DNA of 64,000 nt, from the NCBI GenBank assembly GCA_025357635.1, contig JANXOV010000042.1:62001-126000 (forward strand), in the 5' to 3' direction. Within the stretch, counting starts at the first letter, position 1, and every line of letters starts with the position of its first letter. This document shows, one piece after another, positions 35,260-36,549 of the stretch. The notes below the pieces were generated by a model, which worked only from the letters and a program-made list of their open reading frames with translations, was not told the origin of the DNA and did no database searches. The translations under genes and the position numbers were made by a program. The DNA comes from Pseudomonadota bacterium (GTDB lineage Bacteria; Pseudomonadota; Gammaproteobacteria; Steroidobacterales; Steroidobacteraceae).

Positions 35260-35652
35260 TCAGCGCTTGCGCAATGCGTCGCGAATCTCCTCGAGCAGAA
35301 CTTCCTGACGCGGCGGCGCGCCGGGAGCTGCGGCGACCGGCGGCTTCTTCAGATTGTTGATGGCGCGCAACGCCAGAAACAGCACGAACGCGATGATCAC
35401 GAAGTCGAACACCGATTGCAGAAACACGCCGTATTTGAGCAGCACCGCGGCGCCCGCCGGGTCCTTGCCCAGATCCACCGCGAGCGTGGCGAAATTGACG
35501 CCTCCCATGGCCTTGCCCAGGATCGGCATCAGCACATCGGCCACCATCGACGAAACGATCTTGCCGAACGCGCCGCCAACGATGACGCCAACGGCCAGAT
35601 CGACCACGTTGCCCTTCATTGCAAATTCCTTGAACTCAGCTGCCAAACCCAT
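35260..35652 (-). CDS. mscL: Large-conductance mechanosensitive channel MscL
   Basis: A 130-residue inner-membrane channel with N-terminal [27 protein letters not shown] (TM1 with the pore-lining GxxxG) and a second helix, [19 protein letters not shown]. It opens under membrane tension to release osmolytes. AAGGAG stands just upstream of the ATG. Confidence 0.97.
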
Positions 35653-35756: not shown

Positions 35757-35941
35757 CGTTCTGTAGTGCCGGATGTCCATTGTTTGCGCGTGGGCGCGCG
35801 GTGAAGGCACCTCGCCGGCGCGGAGGGTCGCTAGCGCGTAGGGCCTTGCGGGCGAGTCAACCCTGGCGCTCAGCGCGACCCGCGCGCCGGCGAGGCCGCG
35901 CTTGACACGCGCAAACAATGGACATCCGGCACTACAGAACG
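35757..35941. repeat. 185-bp nested palindromic element with perfect 36-bp terminal inverted repeats
   Basis: The arms 35757-35792 and 35906-35941 are exact reverse complements over 36 bp (outer ends CGTTCTGTAGTGCCGGATGT and its complement). Inside, a second 13-bp pair, CCTCGCCGGCGCG (35810-35822) and CGCGCCGGCGAGG (35883-35895), and a third pair, GGGTCGC/GCGACCC, nest symmetrically around a centre near 35850. No convincing gene is encoded. The form fits a MITE or other small mobile palindrome, or a very long folded RNA. No target-site duplication was recognised. Together with the terminator it accounts for most of the 411-nt gap between mscL and rplQ. Confidence 0.8.
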
Positions 35942-35996: not shown

Positions 35997-36028
35997 AAAA
36001 AAAGGCGCGATGTGATCGCGCCCTTTTT
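35997..36028 (-). terminator. Intrinsic terminator of the ribosomal protein operon
   Basis: Stem GGCGCGA / TCGCGCC (36004-36010 and 36016-36022) with a 5-nt loop is flanked by A7 on one side and CTTTTT on the other, so it can work in both directions. On the minus strand it follows the rplQ stop at 36064 by about 40 nt. Confidence 0.85.
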
Positions 36029-36063: not shown

Positions 36064-36549
36064 TCAGGCGGCGGCTTTCTTTCGCTTAGGCTTCGGGGCC
36101 GCTTCCGCCTCGGGGGCGTCAGCTTTTGGGGCAGCCTTTTTCTTGGCCTTCGGTTTGGCCTTGCCTTCTTCGGCGGGGGCTTCGACCTTGACGGGGCCAT
36201 CGACCAGTTGCACCAGTGCCATGCCGGCAGTGTCGCCGGGGCGCATTTCCATTTTCAGGATGCGGGTGTAGCCGCCAGCGCGCGCCTTGAAGCGAGGTCC
36301 GATATCGTCGAACAACTTGTCCACGATGCCCACGTCGCGCAGTCGCGAATAGGCCAGGCGGCGATTCGCCAGCGTATCGGCTTTGGCCAGAGTGATCAGT
36401 GGCTCGACGACCTTGCGCAATTCCTTGGCCTTGGGGACCGTGGTGCGGATCGTTTCGTGACGCAGGATCGAGGTTGCCATGTTGCGCAACATCGCGTGGC
36501 GGTGGGAGGTGCTGCGGGAGAGCTGCCGCCCGGTATTTCTATGACGCAT
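36064..36549 (-). CDS. rplQ: 50S ribosomal protein L17
   Basis: A 161-residue protein starting [20 protein letters not shown], the family signature. A Lys/Ala/Pro-rich tail from about residue 125 extends it beyond the 127 residues of E. coli L17. Last gene of the operon, 13 nt after rpoA. Confidence 0.97.

Follow-up and report, generated by a model that had tools for sequence, protein, structure and literature searches.

Conserved stems are the feature by which most palindromic repeats of bacteria are recognised. In the SLS families conservation lies in the stems, which are found again in each copy, and the REP, BIME and REPIN elements are believed to travel as hairpins of single-stranded DNA. 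The SLS families, which include ERIC, NEMIS/Correia, YPAL, RPE, Bor-1 and others, are bacterial stem-loop repeats (PMC2267715), and the attC sites of integrons are recognised via extrahelical bases of the folded strand (PMC3053210). The hairpin described here lies at positions 35757-35941 of a 64,000-nucleotide stretch of DNA (the window) from a genome of the Steroidobacteraceae (G000; 4.29 Mb in 182 contigs, 100% complete). Contigs of this genome are given C numbers, C28 being that of the window.

The window hairpin is 185 bp long and non-coding. Its arms (35757-35792 and 35906-35941) are 36 nt each, 100% complementary and separated by a 113-nt spacer, and two further pairs are nested inside them, at 35793-35801/35880-35888 (9 nt) and 35810-35822/35883-35895 (13 nt). 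A perfect 36-nt inverted pair at such short spacing is far beyond chance. An earlier note, made from the letters of the window, had described a palindrome with perfect 36-nt ends and two nested inner pairs, and recomputing the coordinates and complementarity gave the same structure. The note also held that the element could fold into one long hairpin, which agrees with the folding energies of the 185 nt, at −93 kcal/mol (z −15.0) as single-strand DNA and −145.9 and −143.5 kcal/mol (z −13.9 and −15.0) for the RNA of the two strands, so that z is about −14 to −15 on both strands and no DNA or RNA shuffle matched the fold. The neighbouring genes, identified with NCBIfam, encode MscL (35260-35652, minus strand) and L17/RplQ (36064-36549, minus strand), and a terminator-like hairpin on the rplQ side (35998-36028) is a structure separate from the 185-bp element. 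No plausible gene was found inside the element, which lies between mscL and the rplQ-side terminator, as had been proposed.

A BLAST search of the window element against its own genome returned further sites that match in the inner part only, and a covariance model (R1) found nine solid copies in G000 (E 1e-23 to 4e-7), so the search for further copies suggested in the earlier note revealed a dispersed element, here family 1. The copies are on C28 (the window), C129 (two, C129a and C129b), C115, C136, C159, C120 (two, C120a and C120b) and C5. With nine copies and a shared stem-loop, family 1 falls in the broad class of SLS-type dispersed intergenic repeats. Full-length copies measure 185-198 bp and are uniform in architecture, and C120a, at 160 bp, has lost part of the core. 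In the window copy the private part of each arm is limited to its outer ~29 nt, and the sequence inward from 35786 is that of the repeat family, which corrects the earlier note. A weaker R1 match is a broken core on C83 (E 0.024) with an adjoining transposase-like gene. This copy is cut after 50 nt of core (L049:170-2166) and is intact on C129 (L043:1-180). Because C129 has its first ~102 bases in common with C83, the two records are, judged from their sequence, probably one locus with and without an insertion sequence. The shared ~102 bp also suggests a mixed population or a duplicated site.

We aligned seven full cores in a common orientation (alignment A1, 129 columns). The consensus fold, derived with RNAalifold and an explicit pair count, contains 36 pairs with 99.6% of cells paired, and 16 of the 36 pairs show double compensatory changes. 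None of 500 shuffles reached this covariation, and when pairing partners were slid by 1-3 columns as a control, only 26-52% of cells were paired. The test of covariance is strong evidence that the fold of the core is conserved. From the outside inwards, a copy consists of an arm of 29-36 nt that is T-rich near the core, GCGCGTGGGCGCGCGG facing CCGCGCTTACACGCGC, a bulge TAAAGGCA, an inner stem that varies between copies but is paired, GCTAGCGC and GCGCTCAGCGC as further boxes, and a loop that is variable. On average, copies are 85% identical to one another in the boxes, 50% in the inner stem, 47% in the loop and 32% in the outer arms, and within each copy 9-10 of 10 inner-stem positions are paired. 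The parts of the window copy are as follows.

35757-35785 (29 nt), plus strand: left outer arm, private to the window copy and T-rich beside the core; perfect complement of 35913-35941, found elsewhere in the genome only as its own partner arm and different in all other copies.
35786-35912 (127 nt), plus strand: conserved family core, with nine solid genome copies by BLAST and covariance model and 113 bits in the window.
35786-35801, plus strand: conserved box GCGCGTGGGCGCGCGG, which pairs with 35896-35912 (helix 1); near invariant in A1.
35802-35809, plus strand: conserved one-sided bulge TGAAGGCA (family form TAAAGGCA), unpaired in the consensus fold on one side only.
35810-35822, plus strand: 5′ side of the inner stem (helix 2), varying between copies with compensating changes; 13 of 22 pairs with double compensatory changes.
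35830-35837, plus strand: invariant box GCTAGCGC below the apical loop (invariant columns in A1).
35838-35865, plus strand: apical loop, 47% identity between copies in the copy alignment.
35866-35876, plus strand: conserved box GCGCTCAGCGC opposite GCTAGCGC, from A1.
35883-35895, plus strand: 3′ side of the inner stem, 100% complementary to 35810-35822.
35896-35912, plus strand: conserved box CCGCGCTTGACACGCGC, from A1 and the consensus fold.
35913-35941, plus strand: right outer arm, private to the window copy; perfect complement of the left arm.

The outer arms are complementary within seven of the nine copies and perfectly so in five (C28, C115, C120a, C120b and C5). They are decayed in C159 and C136, and in C129a and C129b they show no significant complementarity. 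Arm sequences were found nowhere else in G000, and with no further copies in this genome the idea that the arms are spacers copied from other genome positions was rejected. Between copies, 9 of 36 pairs of arms resemble each other at p ≤ 0.05 against shuffles, in a loose GGAyCCGArTT...TTTT pattern, and this weak common motif could reflect common descent or a target preference. The earlier note took perfect arms to imply recent insertion or active maintenance; with perfect arms in five copies and decayed arms in others, youth fits better than continuous maintenance.

Family 1 appears to be confined to its source genome. A DNA search found none in 59 relatives, and in covariance model searches, which for sets of more than 40 genomes used stricter filters that may miss weak relatives, there was none in 150 genomes of the taxonomic family and G000 was the sole positive among 396 genomes of the order. 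Further afield, the motif GCGCGTRGGCGCGCN{1,4}AAGGCA gave 19 scattered GC-rich matches in 84,980 named genomes, none scoring as family 1, and only five GC-repetitive matches in viral contigs; phages gave no match, and a 31-bp Cupriavidus match among plasmids was set aside because it is not a comparable hairpin. The same-genus comparison is with one genome only (G001, 82% complete), which retains the gene order at the C115, C159 and C120a sites and is missing the hairpin at all three. For the window copy itself, the matching G001 contig stops inside rplQ, so the comparison is of the three other sites. The proposal of recent acquisition in the earlier note is thus supported by 395 negative genomes of the order and three syntenic sites without the hairpin, and the contrary pattern that it named, a lone copy kept in every relative, is not what was found. 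At C115 and C159, G000 is also longer than G001 by about 190 bp next to the hairpin, and with respect to the core the extra DNA lies on the same side at both sites; these stretches (L044:2913-3107 and L046:7418-7607) have no obvious mutual similarity.

We propose that the window hairpin is a copy of a genome-specific, non-coding, non-autonomous repeat of about 185-198 bp that spreads, or recently spread, as a folded single strand, with its arms equalised at copying, and we give this reading a probability of roughly one half. A putative enzyme acting in trans would read the folded hairpin via the bulge and the loop-proximal boxes, and because recognition would run through these elements, the stem sequence would be free to drift while pairing holds. 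The arms would turn identical when a copy is made, one arm templating the other in the folded strand, either through fold-back synthesis or through repair of a hairpin intermediate, and would decay after insertion, as in C159 and C136. Copies are predicted to settle almost only between convergent gene ends, the place of least harm. Several observations count against this mobile hairpin. Target duplications and conserved termini are lacking, and neither an excision product nor polymorphism within the species was seen. In C129b, moreover, the core is intact and complementary arms are absent, so the arms are not always present.

That copy also fits the strongest competing explanation, in which the mobile unit is the 127-bp core alone; at or after insertion its hairpin would prime fold-back synthesis, about 30 nt of one flank would be copied to the opposite side, and the arms would be an inverted target duplication. 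The arms are private to their locus and unique in the genome, as this would predict, and the core has a history common to the copies that the arms do not share (in C129a and C136 the loops are 93% identical and the arms 38%). We nevertheless find this doubtful. The arms are uniform in length (29-36 nt beyond the core), unlike the product of random template switching, and they have a weak common motif. At the C120a locus, empty in G001, there is no significant arm similarity (p about 0.26); a left arm native to that site looked plausible by eye and was rejected on this value. A further argument comes from a second family of hairpins in the same genome, whose arms are partly conserved and the element's own.

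Family 2 was found by scanning stretches for long-arm hairpins. It measures about 225-235 bp and often consists of two hairpins in opposite (head-to-head) orientation, at C159:14445-15037 (L046), C56:8240-8473 (L050:6241-6474), C7 (L106), C121 (L107), C1 (L108), C182 (L109) and C145 (L110), some of these copies lying at contig ends, where individual arms may be mis-joined. The core is well conserved and contains two inner hairpins, and the outer arms, which are not the same in different copies, covary, with double changes in 26 of 68 pairs. These arms diverge fast yet are partly conserved, and they clearly belong to the element; element-owned arms are therefore preferred for family 1 too. A partial relative of family 2 is present in G001 (L112). 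On C7, a transposon body between two family 2 hairpins was considered and rejected, as only ordinary genes lie there, and at L110:700-2240 a family 2 hairpin is interrupted by some 1.4 kb of DNA, probably an insertion sequence, that is bounded by short inverted ends (GGACGCCCC/GGGGCGTCC). In the 468 kb of G000 scanned for arms of at least 20, all hairpins belong to family 1 or 2, bar two fold-backs at contig ends. Roughly 290 kb within these, picked regardless of hairpins (L114-L133), contained no long-arm hairpin, and neither did 224 kb of G001. As to how such arms arise, we tentatively suggest that either core insertion leads, through fold-back synthesis, to a fixed-length (about 30 nt) inverted flank duplication, or the element is a hairpin transposon in which, at each transposition, one arm is made anew on the template of its partner. 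In both cases, if true, the mechanism of transposition would leave an inverted signature in place of a direct one.

The genomic surroundings bear on a structured RNA or 3′-end element, such as a bidirectional transcription barrier, an RNase III substrate or an mRNA stabiliser, that was amplified in the species. All family 1 copies are intergenic, and about seven of nine are flanked by convergent gene ends and two by tandem genes, as read from open reading frames and flanks without curated annotation, an excess of convergent sites with a binomial p of about 0.001-0.01 (assumed background 25-35%). The hairpin ends are often about 12-35 bp from stop codons, and the strong covarying fold would fit a structured RNA as well. 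While these features suit such an element, several others make it unlikely. Orientation relative to neighbouring genes is not fixed (antisense at C28, sense at C120b). The window hairpin is not an intrinsic terminator in the sense of a GC-rich stem followed by a U-run, as no U-run comes after the stem and the T-run sits within it, beside the core, and rplQ has its own terminator-like hairpin. There is no clear strand bias, with 8 GT against 1 AC in the core stems, five of the GT being one conserved position, and the decayed arms lean the opposite way, with 6 AC against 1 GT. An Rfam search of the element found no family at the gathering cut-off, and the best matches were far below it; one of these, to MIR918, is the chance match expected of any long hairpin. 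Nor do known RNAs of such kinds need 30-nt arms that pair perfectly with no constraint on their sequence.

Integron attC sites, or derivatives of them, moved by an integrase of G000 are a very improbable source of the hairpins. A bona fide integron integrase gene is present at C62:233-1210 (L159; 448 bits, cut-off 265), at a contig end and convergent with ychF, and the attI/cassette side of this integron was probably lost to the assembly break. Like family 1, attC sites conserve structure over sequence, and they are recognised through extrahelical bases (PMC3053210). The box pair RYYYAAC ... GTTRRRY is absent from all 17 hairpins of families 1 and 2, however, the copies are isolated between core genes outside a cassette array, and there is no family 1 copy in the first 20 kb beside the integrase. 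Least credible of all is an assembly or library artefact, since, although two contig ends carry perfect fold-backs of 39 and 57 nt (L047:17664-17849, in a coding region, and L111:1921-2201) that are probably chimeras of this kind, the copies are internal to their contigs, with ordinary flanking sequence to left and right and gene order conserved in the relative, and a core recurring nine times with compensatory changes is beyond any artefact.

The preferred reading, a repeat that spreads as a folded single strand, matters for what two families in one genome have in common, namely that the fold and the unpaired boxes are kept and the stem sequence is renewed. Arms that match within copies and not between them would be the footprint of one arm serving as template for its partner. 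Confirmation would mean that genome sequence records directly either fold-back DNA synthesis or single strands moving while folded, and would point to a putative enzyme that reads the shape of DNA or RNA.

Among known systems, family 1 resembles MITEs in being short and gene-free, with inverted repeats, several copies and a lineage-private distribution, but the copies have no conserved terminal inverted repeat in common and no target duplication was found at the five perfect copies (C28, C115, C120a, C120b and C5), which speaks against the MITE suggested in the earlier note. No element with matching ends was encountered, although ends that are not conserved offer no query for one. The REP-like element also suggested there fares no better. 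Family 1 shares with REP/BIME/REPIN and their TnpA_REP (RAYT) a palindromic, extragenic and non-autonomous nature, but it is far longer, and no GTAG- or CGTC-tagged REP unit was seen in the copies aligned in A1. The Y1 transposase (PF01797) is absent from the 100%-complete G000, in a search that detected its controls, so mobilisation from G000 by REP/RAYT or IS200/IS605 is unlikely. The third suggestion, an attC-like element, is lost as to membership, because an integrase is present but no copy has the box pair; family 1 is without R′′/R′ boxes, 185-198 bp long and outside a cassette array. With stems that vary, a structure that is kept and an IntI gene in the genome, it may by analogy still work in an attC-like way. 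Like the SLS families, family 1 is short, non-coding, intergenic, dispersed and confined to a lineage (to species or genus in SLS), with the whole element forming one long stem-loop. In contrast to them, its stems, chiefly the outer arms, are not alike from one copy to another, and conservation is limited to the unpaired boxes and the core's base. By the tests run, family 1 matches no known element and is best filed with the stem-loop repeats of bacteria, as a variant whose arms show an unusual pattern.
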